From assembly GCF_016862635.1 (NCBI RefSeq), contig NZ_BONI01000005.1, positions 124,001 to 188,000 of the forward strand: a DNA stretch of 64,000 nt, read 5' to 3'. Shown one piece after another: positions 4,351 through 43,186 of the stretch. How positions within the stretch are numbered: the first letter of the stretch is position 1; the number at the start of each line of letters is the position of its first letter. The notes beneath the pieces were generated by a model, which made no database searches, was not told the origin of the DNA, and saw only the letters and a program-made list of their open reading frames with translations. Position numbers and translations under genes: made by a program. Source of the stretch: Catellatospora coxensis (GTDB lineage Bacteria > Actinomycetota > Actinomycetes > Mycobacteriales > Micromonosporaceae).

Positions 4351-5539
4351 GGCACGCGACGGTGAGCGTGTCGTGCCCACGCAGGATCAGCGGCTTGGCC
4401 ACGTTGCCCGGCTGCTGCGCCAGCGCCAGCTTCGGGAACCGCTCGAACAGCGCCGGGAACGCGACCTGCCCCTCCAGGCGGCTCAGCGCCGCGCCGAGGC
4501 AGTAGTGCGGGCCGAAGCCGAAGCTCAGCGACCCCGGATCGGGCCGGGCCGGGTCGAACGCGTCCGGGTCGGTGAACCGCGCCGGGTCCCGGTTCGCCGC
4601 CCCGATCATGACCAGCACCGCCTGGCCGGCCGGGCAGGGCACGCCCTCGATCTCGGCGTCCTCCGGCGCGTACCGCACCAGGATCTGCACCGGCGGCTCG
4701 AAGCGCAGCATCTCGTCGACGTACGAGCCGACGTTGTGCGCGTTCAGCTCCGCGCGCAGCTGCGGGCGCTCCAGCAGCATGGTCAGGCCGTTGCCGAGCA
4801 GGTGGGTCGTCGTCACGAACCCGGCGTTGAACGTCGTGATCAGGTTCGCGACCAGCGCGTCGTCACTCAGGTCCGTGGCGGCCAGCAGGCTGACCAGGTC
4901 GTCGCGCGGCTCGCTGCGGCGCTTGCCCACCAGGTCGGTGAAGTACGCCGACAGCTCCCGGGCCGCGGTGTCGGCGCGGACCATGTTGCGCCAGTTCGCG
5001 CCGTCGAGTTCGAGGATCGCCCCGATCGCCAGCACCCGCGGCCGGAACCAGGCCAGGTCCTCCTGCGGCACGCCCAGCAGCTCGGCCATCACGCTGCTGG
5101 GCAGCAGGTAGGCGAACTCGCCCATGAACTCGACCGGGCCGTCGGCGGCCAGCTGCGCCAGCCGGTCGAGCAGGCGCTCGGTCAGGCCGGTGACCGCGTG
5201 CTCCAGCGCGGACACCCGCCGCGCGGTGAACGCCCGGCCGATGATCTGCCGTACGCCGTCGTGGGCGGGGCCGTCGGTGAAGAACATCGAGTCGCGCAGC
5301 ACCCGCAGCGCGGGATGCCGCCGCCACTGCGGGGTGTGCAGGTCCAGGTAGGCCGCGTCGAGCTGGCGGAACCGCGGGTCCTTGAGCACCTGGGCAACCG
5401 CGTCGAAGCCGTGCACCGCCACGGCGAAGCCCTGCGCGCCGCCGTCCACGGGCACGGCGACGCCTTCGTGGTGCAGGCGCGCGTAGAGGGCCGGCGGATC
5501 CACACGTCCCTCTTCGGAGAGCAGTGCATTGAGATCCAT
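4340..5539 (-). CDS. Cytochrome P450
   Basis: A soluble bacterial P450 of 399 residues, the usual length. Visible motifs are the I-helix oxygen-binding segment (AGFVTTTHLLGNG), the K-helix ExxR as EMLR, and the heme loop FGFGPHYCLGAALSRLE with its cysteine ligand. It will hydroxylate or otherwise oxidise a small molecule using a ferredoxin partner; none is encoded nearby. I chose the ATG at 5537-5539, with an AGGA site about eight bases upstream, over an in-frame GTG two codons earlier. It is the first gene of the five-gene operon running left to position 1, and its stop overlaps the ligase start. Confidence 0.92.
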   Translation of the reverse strand: MDLNALLSEEGRVDPPALYARLHHEGVAVPVDGGAQGFAVAVHGFDAVAQVLKDPRFRQLDAAYLDLHTPQWRRHPALRVLRDSMFFTDGPAHDGVRQIIGRAFTARRVSALEHAVTGLTERLLDRLAQLAADGPVEFMGEFAYLLPSSVMAELLGVPQEDLAWFRPRVLAIGAILELDGANWRNMVRADTAARELSAYFTDLVGKRRSEPRDDLVSLLAATDLSDDALVANLITTFNAGFVTTTHLLGNGLTMLLERPQLRAELNAHNVGSYVDEMLRFEPPVQILVRYAPEDAEIEGVPCPAGQAVLVMIGAANRDPARFTDPDAFDPARPDPGSLSFGFGPHYCLGAALSRLEGQVAFPALFERFPKLALAQQPGNVAKPLILRGHDTLTVACHGG

Positions 5540-40272: not shown

Positions 40273-42771
40273 TCAGCGCGGCGCGAGGGCCGCCAGCTGC
40301 GCCAGGATCGACGGGTCGGTGATCTTCTCGTCCTCGGCGAGCAGCAGCACCTTGCTGAGCACGACGCTCGTCATCGGATCGTCGTCGGCGAACGGCAGGA
40401 ACAGCCGCCGGTGCGGCTTGCGGCCGAACCCGTCCGGGACCACGCACAGGTAGCCACCCGGCTCGACGTGGATGCTGCCGCTGGTCAGGTGCACCCGGTA
40501 CACGGCACGCGAACCGTGCACGACGGCGGCCGTGCCCTCGACGGCGACCCGGCGCAGGCCCAGGTCCTCGATGAGCGCGGTCAGCACCTCGGCCCGGCTC
40601 TGCGCCCGCGACGGCGAGTCCAGCCGCGCCGGATCGGTGCCCGCTACCGACACGACCAGGTCGAGGTCACGCATGACCTCGGAGAACACGGTCGGCGCCA
40701 CGTCGGCCAGCGGCACGCGCTCGCGTCCGGACAGGAAGCACAGCTCGCCGATCTCCACGTCGCCCATGCCGAAGTATCCGTGGAAGTCGCAGCGCAGGGC
40801 CGCCGTCAGATTCCCCGCCGGGCGGGTGGCCTGGTGCTCGGCGTATTCGCCGTGGGTGCGCCAGCCGCGGCCGGACAGCAGCTGCCCGGCGACCCGGCCG
40901 GTCACGGTGTGGGCGGCGAAGCGCCGGGAGACGTCGACGGCTTCGCGTTCGGCGGGCGTGAGCACGTACAGCTCGCGGAACGCCTGCTTGACGGGCTGGC
41001 GCAGGCGGCGGCGCACGATCTCGGCCTGCCAGTGCCCGAGCCGCCCGGACTCGTACAGGTCGAACGGGTGCGCGGCGGTGACCGGGCCGGCCGTGTCGAC
41101 GTCGGCGAGCAGCCCGACCTCACCGGTGCGGTCGCGCCACAGCAGCGCGGGCAGCATCGCCGCGCCCGCGGGCAGTTTCAGCAGCCCGGCCAGCTCCTGC
41201 GGGCCGACCGGCGCGCCGGTCGCGACGAGCCGTTCGATGACGCCGGTGCGCAGCCTCCTGGCCTGGTCGCGCAGCAGGTCCTGGTGTTCGCGGCTCGCCG
41301 CGTGGCGGGCGTCGGCGCGTACCGCCGCGGGCACGCTCTTCAAGACCTTGCCGCCGCTGGTCACGGTGATGACCGGGTCGGGTCCGTCCATGACCACCGC
41401 GACCGTGTAGTCGCCGCACGTCCACGGCGGCGGGGTGTCGTCGGCGAGCCGGATCTCGCACTCGGTCTCCAGGCGGCTCGCGTCGGGCAGGCCCGCGACC
41501 TGCGCCAGGTGCTCCAGCGCGACCTCGATCGCGGCGGCGTGGCTGTGCCGCCGGTTCGGGCCGAGCTTCGGCCCGCGCTTGGCGACCTCCCGCAACGCCG
41601 TGTACCGGTCGAGCACCGTCTCGCCGTCGGCGAGCGGCAGCATGCCGTACGCGGCGATGCCCGCCAGGGCGTTGTTCTTCACGCGCTTGAGCACCGCCGC
41701 GCGGTTGCGCCCCAGGACCGCGCTGACCAGCTCGCACGGCGTCTGCGCCAGCAGCCGTTCAATCGTCTCCGGTCCGGCCGCCTCGGCCGCCGCCAGGATC
41801 AGCTCGCGGTCGTGGCGGACCACGGCTCCCGCCTCGATCCGGTCCACCAGCCGCAGCAGCGCCGACGCCGGTTCCAGCCCGAGCACCGGCAGCAGCCCCT
41901 CGGCGTCACCGGCTTCCCGGCGCAGGTGGAACGCGCGCAGCCGGACCTCCAGCGGGCACTGCCGCAGGTGCGCGACCAGCTCCGCCAGCTCGGCCCCGGT
42001 CAGCTCCGCCGCGCCCAGCCGCCGCCCGGTGCGCTCCTCCCCCGCCCAGTCCAGCGCCCGCAGCACGAACCGCAGCCCGCGCGGCACGACCACCTGCGGC
42101 AGCTCGTCGTCGGGCACCCCGGCCGAGGTCAGCCGCCACAGCATCTCCTCGACGTACGGCCGCACCGCGTCGGCGCACGCCGCGGGCGGCGGTGGCGGCC
42201 CACCCGCCGGATCCCGGCCCACGATCGTGTTGCCGAGCCAGCGGTCCACGGTGAACGCGTGCTCGACCAGCTCCGCGTCGAGCGCGTCCCGGGCGTGCAG
42301 GGCGTCGAGCACCCTGGTCACGGCGGGCCGGGTCAGCCGCCCCAGCGGCGTCAGCACCAGCGTCCGCATCGCGCCCACGGCACCGGACGCGATGACCCGG
42401 TCGGCCACCTCGTCCAGCGGCGGCGTCCCCCAGGCCGGGGCGCCCAGCAGTGCGCGCAGCGCCGCGTCGCGGGTCGCCGTCGCCCACGGCACGTCCAGCA
42501 CGGTGCACACGTCCGCGTCCGGGGCGAGCGGGAAGGCCTCGTCGTAGGCGTCGCTCAGCGCCCGGTCGATCTCCGGGATGCGCCGCTCCAGGTTGCCGCC
42601 GATCCGGTCGTCGCCGCGCCGGCACTGCTCGCGGATCACCGGTCCCAGCTCACGCAGCAGCGCCAGGTCACCGTCCTTGACCGCGGCACGCACCTGCTCG
42701 ACGCGCTGCCACAGTCCGTCGCGCTCCTGCTCGAACGCCGCCACGTGCACGTCGGGGATCGGGTGGTCCAT
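40273..42771 (-). CDS. DUF4132 domain protein
   Basis: An 832-residue protein. The N-terminal two thirds are helical, HEAT-like repeats rich in Ala, Leu and Arg. The C-terminal third carries the DUF4132 core (RQPVKQAFRELYVLTPAE, then RFAAHT...QLLSGRGW). The final VLSKVLLLAEDEKITDPSI resembles the DUF7737 tail. Members include the E. coli MolR/YehI group, often linked to WGR domains; no biochemical role is established. The start codon comes one base after the stop of the small Gly-Gly protein gene, so the two are translationally coupled. A terminator follows. Confidence 0.87.
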   Translation of the reverse strand: MDHPIPDVHVAAFEQERDGLWQRVEQVRAAVKDGDLALLRELGPVIREQCRRGDDRIGGNLERRIPEIDRALSDAYDEAFPLAPDADVCTVLDVPWATATRDAALRALLGAPAWGTPPLDEVADRVIASGAVGAMRTLVLTPLGRLTRPAVTRVLDALHARDALDAELVEHAFTVDRWLGNTIVGRDPAGGPPPPPAACADAVRPYVEEMLWRLTSAGVPDDELPQVVVPRGLRFVLRALDWAGEERTGRRLGAAELTGAELAELVAHLRQCPLEVRLRAFHLRREAGDAEGLLPVLGLEPASALLRLVDRIEAGAVVRHDRELILAAAEAAGPETIERLLAQTPCELVSAVLGRNRAAVLKRVKNNALAGIAAYGMLPLADGETVLDRYTALREVAKRGPKLGPNRRHSHAAAIEVALEHLAQVAGLPDASRLETECEIRLADDTPPPWTCGDYTVAVVMDGPDPVITVTSGGKVLKSVPAAVRADARHAASREHQDLLRDQARRLRTGVIERLVATGAPVGPQELAGLLKLPAGAAMLPALLWRDRTGEVGLLADVDTAGPVTAAHPFDLYESGRLGHWQAEIVRRRLRQPVKQAFRELYVLTPAEREAVDVSRRFAAHTVTGRVAGQLLSGRGWRTHGEYAEHQATRPAGNLTAALRCDFHGYFGMGDVEIGELCFLSGRERVPLADVAPTVFSEVMRDLDLVVSVAGTDPARLDSPSRAQSRAEVLTALIEDLGLRRVAVEGTAAVVHGSRAVYRVHLTSGSIHVEPGGYLCVVPDGFGRKPHRRLFLPFADDDPMTSVVLSKVLLLAEDEKITDPSILAQLAALAPR

Positions 42772-42772
42772 G

Positions 42773-43186
42773 TCAGCCGCCGACCAGTGCGGTGAGCCGC
42801 ACGAACACGACCGGCTCGCCGAGCCGCAGCACGATCTCCTCGTCCAGCAGGTCCAGCTGCCGCCCGCCGACGAACAGCGCGAACGTGCCGCGCTCGAACG
42901 CCCGCCAGGCGCGGGCCACCTCGGCCTCGACGTCGGGCGCGGCCGCCTGCCGGTCGGGCATCCGGATGACCCCGGTGCCGGCCTGGGCCCGGATGTCCTC
43001 GTCGGTCAGGTACTGCCGGTCGAGCAGGGCGCGGCACCGCGTGCTGTCGGCCTGCCAGGCGCGCACCTGCTCGGCGACGGCGGCCCGGATCAGCTCGCCC
43101 ACCGTCGTCTGTTCCCGTGCCAGCTCCACCAGCACATCGGGCAGGCGGTCCCCGCCGGGAACCCTGCTGCGCACCTCGACCCGCAC
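42773..43186 (-). CDS. Small ubiquitin-like (beta-grasp?) protein ending in Gly-Gly
   Basis: A 137-residue protein from GTG 43184-43186, which has AGGAGG six bases upstream; a longer start at 43201 would put the ribosome site inside the gene. MRVEVRSRVPG and VLVELAREQ look like a first beta hairpin, and TTVGELIRAAVAEQV like the ubiquitin helix. After a helical insert (about 45-100), LFVGGRQLDLLDEEIVL and PVVFVRLTALVGG mirror the last ubiquitin strands, including FxGxQL and the C-terminal Gly-Gly. This is my own visual comparison, not a search result. It precedes DUF4132 by one base. Function unknown. Confidence 0.7.
   Translation of the reverse strand: MRVEVRSRVPGGDRLPDVLVELAREQTTVGELIRAAVAEQVRAWQADSTRCRALLDRQYLTDEDIRAQAGTGVIRMPDRQAAAPDVEAEVARAWRAFERGTFALFVGGRQLDLLDEEIVLRLGEPVVFVRLTALVGG

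Follow-up and report, generated by a model that had tools for sequence, protein, structure and literature searches.

The question raised by the present locus is what a 137-residue protein that ends in Gly-Gly, and that is encoded one base ahead of a gene for a protein of the DUF4132 family, does for its neighbor. The pair lies in a 64,000-nucleotide stretch of Catellatospora coxensis DNA (contig NZ_BONI01000005.1, positions 124,001 to 188,000), the whole of which is referred to here as the window, and a preliminary description had proposed that the small protein is ubiquitin-like (hereafter Ubl). We consider it probable, at roughly 0.6, that the Ubl is an E1-activated carrier resembling MoaD or Urm1 that serves the DUF4132 protein. 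What the analysis shows is the homologue family, the tie of the terminal Gly-Gly to DUF4132, the gene pairing, the predicted beta-grasp-like fold and the adjacency of an E1 gene in three genomes. The features concerned are located in the window as follows.

42773..43186, minus strand: Ubl (predicted beta-grasp), 137 residues, GTG start; identified from homologues, AlphaFold and Foldseek
42776..42781, minus strand: two terminal Gly codons, GGC GGC, ahead of the TGA at 42775-42773; Gly-Gly conserved in homologues
40273..42771, minus strand: DUF4132 protein, 832 residues, beginning one base past the Ubl stop codon
40861..41352, minus strand: PF13569 DUF4132 domain, residues 474-637; profile match
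40294..40605, minus strand: PF24879 DUF7737 domain, residues 723-826; profile match

The Ubl gene and its terminus

The Ubl frame extends on the minus strand from a GTG at 43186 to the stop codon ending at 42773, with an alternative opening at GTG 43201 that would yield 142 residues. The 137-residue start is favored because two homologues (L007 and L008) carry an ATG exactly at that position (..EATMRVEVRS..). The protein terminates in ..VFVRLTALVGG*, its last codons being CTG GTC GGC GGC TGA, and these are followed by a single base, C, and then by the DUF4132 ATG at 42771. Both the Gly-Gly at the very end and the one-base spacing, on which the preliminary description was built, are read directly from the sequence, and the observation of a small protein with a terminal Gly-Gly coupled to DUF4132 is confirmed.

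Conservation of Gly-Gly and coupling to DUF4132

When named genomes were scanned, 164 relatives were matched, of which the best 80 loci were kept (mostly from Micromonosporaceae and Streptomyces, with one metagenome-assembled genome titled Armatimonadetes). All 80 of these best loci end in Gly-Gly, although the scan leans to conserved C-termini because one of its two peptide patterns sits just before the Gly-Gly. Profile searches free of this C-terminal bias brought in members that lack the Gly-Gly. The final table holds 168 rows, distinct in their last 60 residues, which correspond to 167 genes because L314 and L319 are one gene; many are close relatives, and the counts are of genes rather than of independent events. 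Members at a contig edge, run-on or broken (L260, L288, L314/L319, L330 and L331) were counted as not ending in Gly-Gly and as having no DUF4132 detected.

Of the 167 genes, 143 have a DUF4132 gene detected behind them in the same orientation, which bears out the tight pairing of the preliminary description; 141 of these genes end in Gly-Gly and two in Gly-Ala. No DUF4132 was detected behind the remaining 24 (some with short flanks), nine of which end in Gly-Gly and 15 do not. The latter comprise eight copies from a single family of actinobacteria (f30), one gene each in G022 (ending PPAG) and G455 (ending EEP), and the five contig-edge, run-on or broken members. The preliminary description had named non-conservation of the Gly-Gly as the finding that would count against it, and the outcome is divided: the motif is near-invariant beside DUF4132, and homologues without it do exist, both with and without a detected DUF4132. 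The eight genes from f30 (L172, L173, L177, L178, L179, L042, L046 and L048) keep an insert motif approximating GLVQPxDAxRxxDGFRM and have lost the Gly-Gly, and DUF4132 was not detected in their genomes; they form a natural Gly-Gly-less branch, perhaps with another role.

The same association is found at the level of whole genomes. Among 396 sampled actinobacterial genomes, the Ubl family occurs in 18 and DUF4132 in 19, the two surveys being taken as one sample from their matching genome handles. All ten genomes with a Gly-Gly copy (G000, G155, G186, G229, G240, G294, G303, G316, G438 and G444) have DUF4132, the copies of G316 and G444 appearing shortened or broken, and DUF4132 is found in none of the eight with a Gly-Gly-less copy (G109, G133, G166, G283, G356, G383, G419 and G435). 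In nine of the 396, DUF4132 (one match below the Pfam cut-off) was present with no Ubl detected, an absence that is less sure than a presence because 10 candidates were scored per genome. Across the 80 named loci (up to 20 kb each), no genes other than the Ubl (in 80) and DUF4132 (in 77) keep a fixed place, most other repeated neighbors tracking Streptomyces gene order.

The common C-terminal motif, ..F(L/V)(K/R)L(V/T)(P/A)L(V/A)GG, is shared by close orthologues and by a second subfamily, represented in the same genome by a copy on contig C37 that is 27% identical to the window Ubl; few positions of the family are as well conserved as those at the very end. The pair is found in Actinomycetota, in Deinococcota, on a plasmid of Pseudomonadota and in an Armatimonadetes-labelled phylum. 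Its spread beyond Actinomycetota follows from the Gly-Gly pair on a 1.06-Mb plasmid of the alphaproteobacterium Novosphingobium humi (L250, 8857-9225, plus strand, followed by DUF4132). No relatives were found in viral contigs or phage records.

Some loci depart from the usual arrangement. In L334 (G017), a Gly-Gly Ubl (4384-4935, minus strand) is directly followed by a NADAR gene (PF08719, 171 bits), with no DUF4132 in that place, and in L340 (G610) the DUF4132 match (only 56 bits) beside a Gly-Gly Ubl is seemingly broken up. An apparent Ubl-DUF4132 fusion in L319/L314 (G879) was rejected: the DUF4132-like start past the Gly-Gly codons reads in another frame, so the locus looks like the product of frame changes and not a designed fusion. 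Five weak early matches (L020, L021, L023, L024 and L025) are read as other proteins and disappeared in the stricter survey.

Predicted fold of the Ubl

The 137-residue protein has no match in Pfam-A or NCBIfam and no meaningful match among PDB sequences, and a Pfam scan of 19 aligned family members returned only scattered matches (best E 0.02, in two members) that are taken as chance. The AlphaFold2 model, computed on a 24-sequence alignment, has a predicted local distance difference test score (pLDDT) of 84.3 and a predicted template modelling (TM) score of 0.80, and is beta-grasp-like with a helical insert and a disordered tail. Its elements are strands at residues 2-8 and 18-21, a short strand at 26-28, a helix at 29-44 and a helical insert of about 40 residues, followed by a helix at 86-98, strands at 102-106, 109-111, 117-119 and 126-130, and a tail (135-137) modeled at a confidence below 50. 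The core is thus predicted to consist of two strands, a helix and further strands, and the structural check proposed in the preliminary description did not yield a core-less model, the Foldseek E-values being weak. The order of beta-grasp elements given there also agrees with the predicted secondary structure, whereas the letter-by-letter parallel to ubiquitin is no more than suggestive, the sequence searches having returned neither ubiquitin nor ThiS or MoaD as a direct match.

When the model was compared with the PDB by Foldseek, the top matches, all of them weak, were mostly SUMO, MoaD/MOCS2A, ubiquitin and ISG15. Going by entry title and length of chain, the top 50 include 45 that are of the ubiquitin, SUMO, NEDD8, ISG15, UBX, MoaD or Urm1 type or are bacterial multi-ubiquitin chains (1wgk being presumably Urm1); haptocorrin, two EAP-type chains and two superantigen-like ones make up the remainder. 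The highest probability (0.99) belongs to 5mpo_A, of the human molybdopterin synthase complex and taken as the MOCS2A chain, with a TM score of 0.60 on target length. The ubiquitin likeness of the preliminary description is therefore upheld in that ubiquitin-type relatives were found and is not specific, as MoaD/MOCS2A-type carriers match equally. The ThiS/MoaD profile (PF02597) gives no match to the Ubl; its matches in the window's genome (G000) lie on contigs C51, C17, C32 and C114, with none on C5 or C37.

E1-like genes adjoining the pair

The Ubl occurs in 24 of 291 searched genomes of the Armatimonadetes-labelled phylum, and in three of these 24 (G648, G644 and G618) a ThiF-family E1 gene adjoins the pair divergently, in the order E1 (minus), Ubl (plus), DUF4132 (plus), with a divergent gap of 29-71 bp. 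The three E1s are 234-248 residues long and match Pfam ThiF with 225, 201 and 186 bits, respectively; the best PDB matches of their profile are ThiF (1zud/1zfn), MoeB (1jw9) and Uba4 (6yub). The earlier statement that no E1, E2 or JAB gene is visible holds for the window as far as the E1 is concerned, whereas an E1-like gene does adjoin the pair in these three other genomes. A search of 30 Ubl-bearing genomes turned up ThiF-family genes in 29, and among these the gene adjoins the Ubl in G648 only, the next nearest being about 18 kb away (G002). Searching loci L001-L361 with a profile built on the three E1s gave no further copy in these loci, many of which have only about 1.5 kb of flank. In the window's genome, ThiF genes lie on contigs C12, C106, C55 and C4 and a JAB gene on C51.

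A Prok-JAB gene stands beside the Ubl in none of the 30 genomes, with a JAB match somewhere in 27. No E2 was recognized in a Pfam scan of nine neighbors of the E1-linked loci, no genome-wide E2 profile search having been made, and the same nine genes include no rhodanese or desulfurase and no Pfam family common to the three loci (AdoHcyase and DinB; PSD1, globin and oxidoreductase; thioredoxin and MurJ). The thioredoxin gene (L343, 6536-6862, in G618; PF00085, 112 bits) adjoins the E1-Ubl-DUF4132 block.

In a tree of E1 sequences, the three Ubl-linked E1s fall outside a clade with 97/97 support, here called MoeB-like, in which ThiF genes from eight further genomes are placed, the C12 copy of the window's genome among them. 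As one group the three have a support of 58/52 and appear in 62% of bootstrap trees; because the tree is weakly resolved, a dedicated E1 lineage is not claimed.

The DUF4132 partner

The 832-residue protein matches PF13569 (DUF4132) with 91.3 bits against a gathering score of 27, PF24879 (DUF7737) with 113 bits, and the end of PF18991 with 30 bits. Its model (pLDDT 85.5) is helical up to about residue 443 and alpha+beta beyond, and gave only weak matches to the PDB, mostly solenoid, repeat or scaffold proteins, none of them informative and none at an E-value of 0.001 or below. In an alignment of 38 sequences the invariant columns, apart from the start Met, all lie from residue 481 on; the many invariant polar residues of this C-terminal half include His568, Gln592, Gln596, Arg599, Glu600, Glu608, Arg635, Glu698, Arg701 and His761, and no cysteine is invariant.

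Of ten close DUF4132 relatives without an adjoining Ubl that were inspected, nine (L168:5986-8457, minus strand; L234, L235, L237, L238, L240, L241, L244 and L248) end in a short Cys-x-x-Cys-Gly-x-x-His tail. An 11-Mb actinobacterial genome (G016, L210-L229) has 20 DUF4132 matches and one Ubl found by search.

The pair in Deinococcus radiodurans

The same family profile finds, in D. radiodurans, a 134-residue frame ending ..RLTALAGG that lies after trxC (L363 84-512) and 3 nt before a DUF4132 gene; because the gene order matches, we identify this pair as DR_A0165-DR_A0166. Genes for modA, thiD and a thiazole synthase lie close to it, and the pair is repeated on three other Deinococcus plasmids, no thioredoxin gene being annotated beside it in the stretches shown of these three loci.

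DRA0165 has been listed as putatively sharing an operon with drA0166; it has a DdrO-type motif at -83 and is strongly upregulated upon DdrO depletion, and the DRA0166 protein is induced by mitomycin C in the wild type and not in an irrE mutant (PMC8533742). DR_A0165 (SEP068184) is also reported to be upregulated by gamma irradiation and H2O2 and, from mutant assays, to be a negative regulator of oxidative resistance, with deletion raising antioxidant activity; it binds Trx1 (DR_A0164) in pull-downs, and its threading matches include 5MPO (MOCS2A), 3PO0 (SAMP1), 1WGK and other MoaD-like entries (PMC9650054). The latter report states that a radiation-desiccation response motif (RDRM) is absent upstream of the gene and calls the protein Deinococcus-only and species-specific, a statement contradicted by the homologues found here in other phyla.

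Proposed mechanism and alternative explanations

According to the preferred reading, the Ubl would be a stand-alone beta-grasp carrier that works like MoaD or Urm1, its C-terminal Gly-Gly being adenylated by a ThiF/MoeB-type E1-like enzyme, the gene for which adjoins that of the Ubl in some genomes and which would be supplied in trans in the window's genome. The activated tail, as acyl-adenylate, thioester or thiocarboxylate, would be presented to the co-encoded DUF4132 protein, a predicted helical solenoid with a conserved C-terminal domain that may be either the acceptor of a modification or an enzyme using the tail. The pair may act in stress physiology, as in D. radiodurans, where DNA damage induction is reported and the carrier appears to restrain oxidative-stress resistance. 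Adenylation, transfer to DUF4132 and the identity of the product are the steps that we infer.

Several findings weigh against this reading. The best Foldseek E-value is 0.017, with none at 0.001 or below, and when the Ubl was compared by hhalign to ThiS, to CysO and to a mixture of sulfur carriers taken from relatives, the probabilities stayed below 1% and were no better than those of 58 control clusters; because these sequence tests failed, a predicted beta-grasp-like fold is claimed, and sequence homology to ThiS/MoaD is not. The E1 adjacency was seen only in the three genomes of one phylum, and in no other genome, and contigs C5 and C37 of the window's genome carry neither ThiF nor JAB. The two DUF4132-linked members ending in Gly-Ala (L344 and L359, with giant DUF4132 proteins) belong to the Armatimonadetes-labelled phylum, and the contig-edge members L288 and L260 end in AGL and RSS. 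The closest relatives of the window's DUF4132 protein in the genus, 43-46% identical, have no adjoining Ubl, and two genomes with this Ubl-less type (G005 and G009) gave no match in a Ubl search; the existence of such close relatives implies that the Ubl is dispensable for some DUF4132 proteins. As for Deinococcus, the two published accounts differ over the membership of DR_A0165 in the DdrO regulon (PMC8533742; PMC9650054), and 157 shared co-immunoprecipitation partners were found with C-terminally tagged DR_A0165 too (PMC9650054), so that this set cannot depend on a free Gly-Gly.

If the Ubl is an E1-activated carrier, we give sulfur transfer about the same likelihood as protein conjugation, and each taken singly is held only tentatively. 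As a sulfur carrier, the Ubl would have its tail converted to a thiocarboxylate, as in ThiS, MoaD and CysO, and DUF4132 would draw on that sulfur for a reaction involving a small molecule or RNA, with no protein modified. The closeness of the E1 neighbors to ThiF and MoeB, the lack of an adjacent JAB or recognized E2, the MoaD/MOCS2A-like predicted fold and the modA, thiD and thiazole synthase genes near the D. radiodurans pair all argue for such a role, which is less easily reconciled with the absence of any third gene at a fixed place in the 80 named loci, of a rhodanese or desulfurase among the nine flanking genes, and of better than weak, mostly solenoid or scaffold-type matches to the DUF4132 model. 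As a protein modifier, the Ubl would instead become covalently attached, whether to DUF4132 or to some other protein, as are Urm1, the SAMPs and the Ubls of the Bil and CBASS (cyclic oligonucleotide-based antiphage signaling) systems, with DUF4132 as target or ligase. This is possible given the E1 adjacency, a free Gly-Gly kept chiefly by the members linked to DUF4132, and the many invariant polar residues in the DUF4132 C-terminal half, but no E2 or E3-like partner was recognized and no JAB stands beside the Ubl, two DUF4132-linked members lack the Gly-Gly, and no cysteine is found among the invariant DUF4132 residues.

A more far-reaching form of conjugation, in which E1-Ubl-DUF4132 would constitute an unrecognized E2-independent protein-modification pathway induced by DNA damage or oxidation, with DUF4132 as a ligase of a new kind or dedicated acceptor and a Ubl-DUF4132 core in at least four bacterial phyla, is speculative and seems rather doubtful.

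Doubtful, too, is a role as structural subunit only, in which the Ubl would bind DUF4132 non-covalently in the manner of YukD, the Gly-Gly end serving as a docking tail. Nearly all loci are indeed two-gene pairs with no adjoining E1, and C-terminally tagged DR_A0165 still pulls down partners (PMC9650054); against this, an E1 gene adjoins the pair in three genomes, and the end of the protein, though predicted to be disordered, ranks among its best conserved parts. A purely structural role is possible where the E1 is not adjacent.

Finally, the suggestion that the Gly-Gly merely results from a ribosome-binding site that serves the DUF4132 start and overlies the end of the small gene is disfavored and very improbable: the tight spacing and the enrichment of GGT at the first Gly (76/137, versus 106/1062 other Gly codons in these genes) imply some nucleotide-level constraint, but both Gly positions use all four codons in the 137 Gly-Gly/DUF4132 cases, the first DUF4132-frame start codon lies anywhere from -11 to +109 (found in 130 of the 137, none in seven), the upstream protein ends in Gly-Gly in only one of 279 other closely spaced pairs (80 named loci, home-made gene-calling script), and the Gly-Gly is kept in L324, although DUF4132 is on the opposite strand about 2 kb off, and in L081 and L323 (as in L325 and L335) with no intact DUF4132 found behind the Ubl.

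Comparison with known systems

A Gly-Gly Ubl beside DUF4132, with an E1 in a few bacteria, points to an uncharted stress-linked modification or sulfur-transfer pathway. For a family without known function, this pairing offers testable biochemistry: should conjugation be demonstrated, it would be a bacterial Ubl pathway without recognized E2 or JAB, and should it be sulfur transfer, a new sulfur-carrier route.

The Ubl is similar to MoaD, ThiS and CysO (PF02597) in its predicted beta-grasp, its free C-terminal Gly-Gly and its ThiF/MoeB-type E1 neighbor in three genomes, and unlike them in the absence of a sequence or profile match, in the helical insert that separates the first helix from the strands after it, and in its DUF4132 partner. 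Urm1-Uba4 and the archaeal SAMP-UbaA employ one E1 and no E2, with a carrier that is also a possible modifier. The Ubl would work alike if the E1-activated carrier reading is right; unlike these systems, the E1s here, from their length, have no room for a fused rhodanese, and the DUF4132 partner is dedicated. Bil and related systems are bacterial E1-E2-JAB Ubl operons. Operons of this E1-E2-JAB type (Iyer 2006 rows 6a-6e, PMC1779556) likewise place a Ubl and an E1 in one cluster, whereas in the present case no E2 is recognized and no JAB adjoins the Ubl. The ThiS/MoaD-E1-JAB operons without E2 (rows 4b-4e of the same paper) also cluster a Ubl with an E1-like enzyme; they carry JAB, often with sulfur or cysteine genes, where the present loci have DUF4132 and, in 30 genomes, no JAB adjoining the Ubl. 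The main text of that paper (PMC1779556) makes no mention of MolR; MolR/YehI-type proteins have the DUF4132 domain in common with the partner described here. At other DUF4132 loci, such as L365 beside VWA and SWIM genes, a Ubl search gave none.

No mention of the Ubl-DUF4132 pair as such, or of the E1-Ubl-DUF4132 cluster, was found in the literature searched, in which subscription papers and preprints are thinly covered. Already in print are the operon in Deinococcus and, for the small protein that it encodes, the threading to MoaD-like entries. The main text of the report on that protein (DR_A0165/SEP068184) does not use the word ubiquitin, and no E1 or Gly-Gly argument was seen in the report (PMC9650054). 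The protein belongs to the same family as the window Ubl, with 134 residues, a Gly-Gly end, a position directly before a DUF4132 gene and the MoaD-like threading (PMC9650054), and because the pair there has a reported induction and deletion phenotype, the question raised by the C. coxensis locus can be addressed directly in D. radiodurans.

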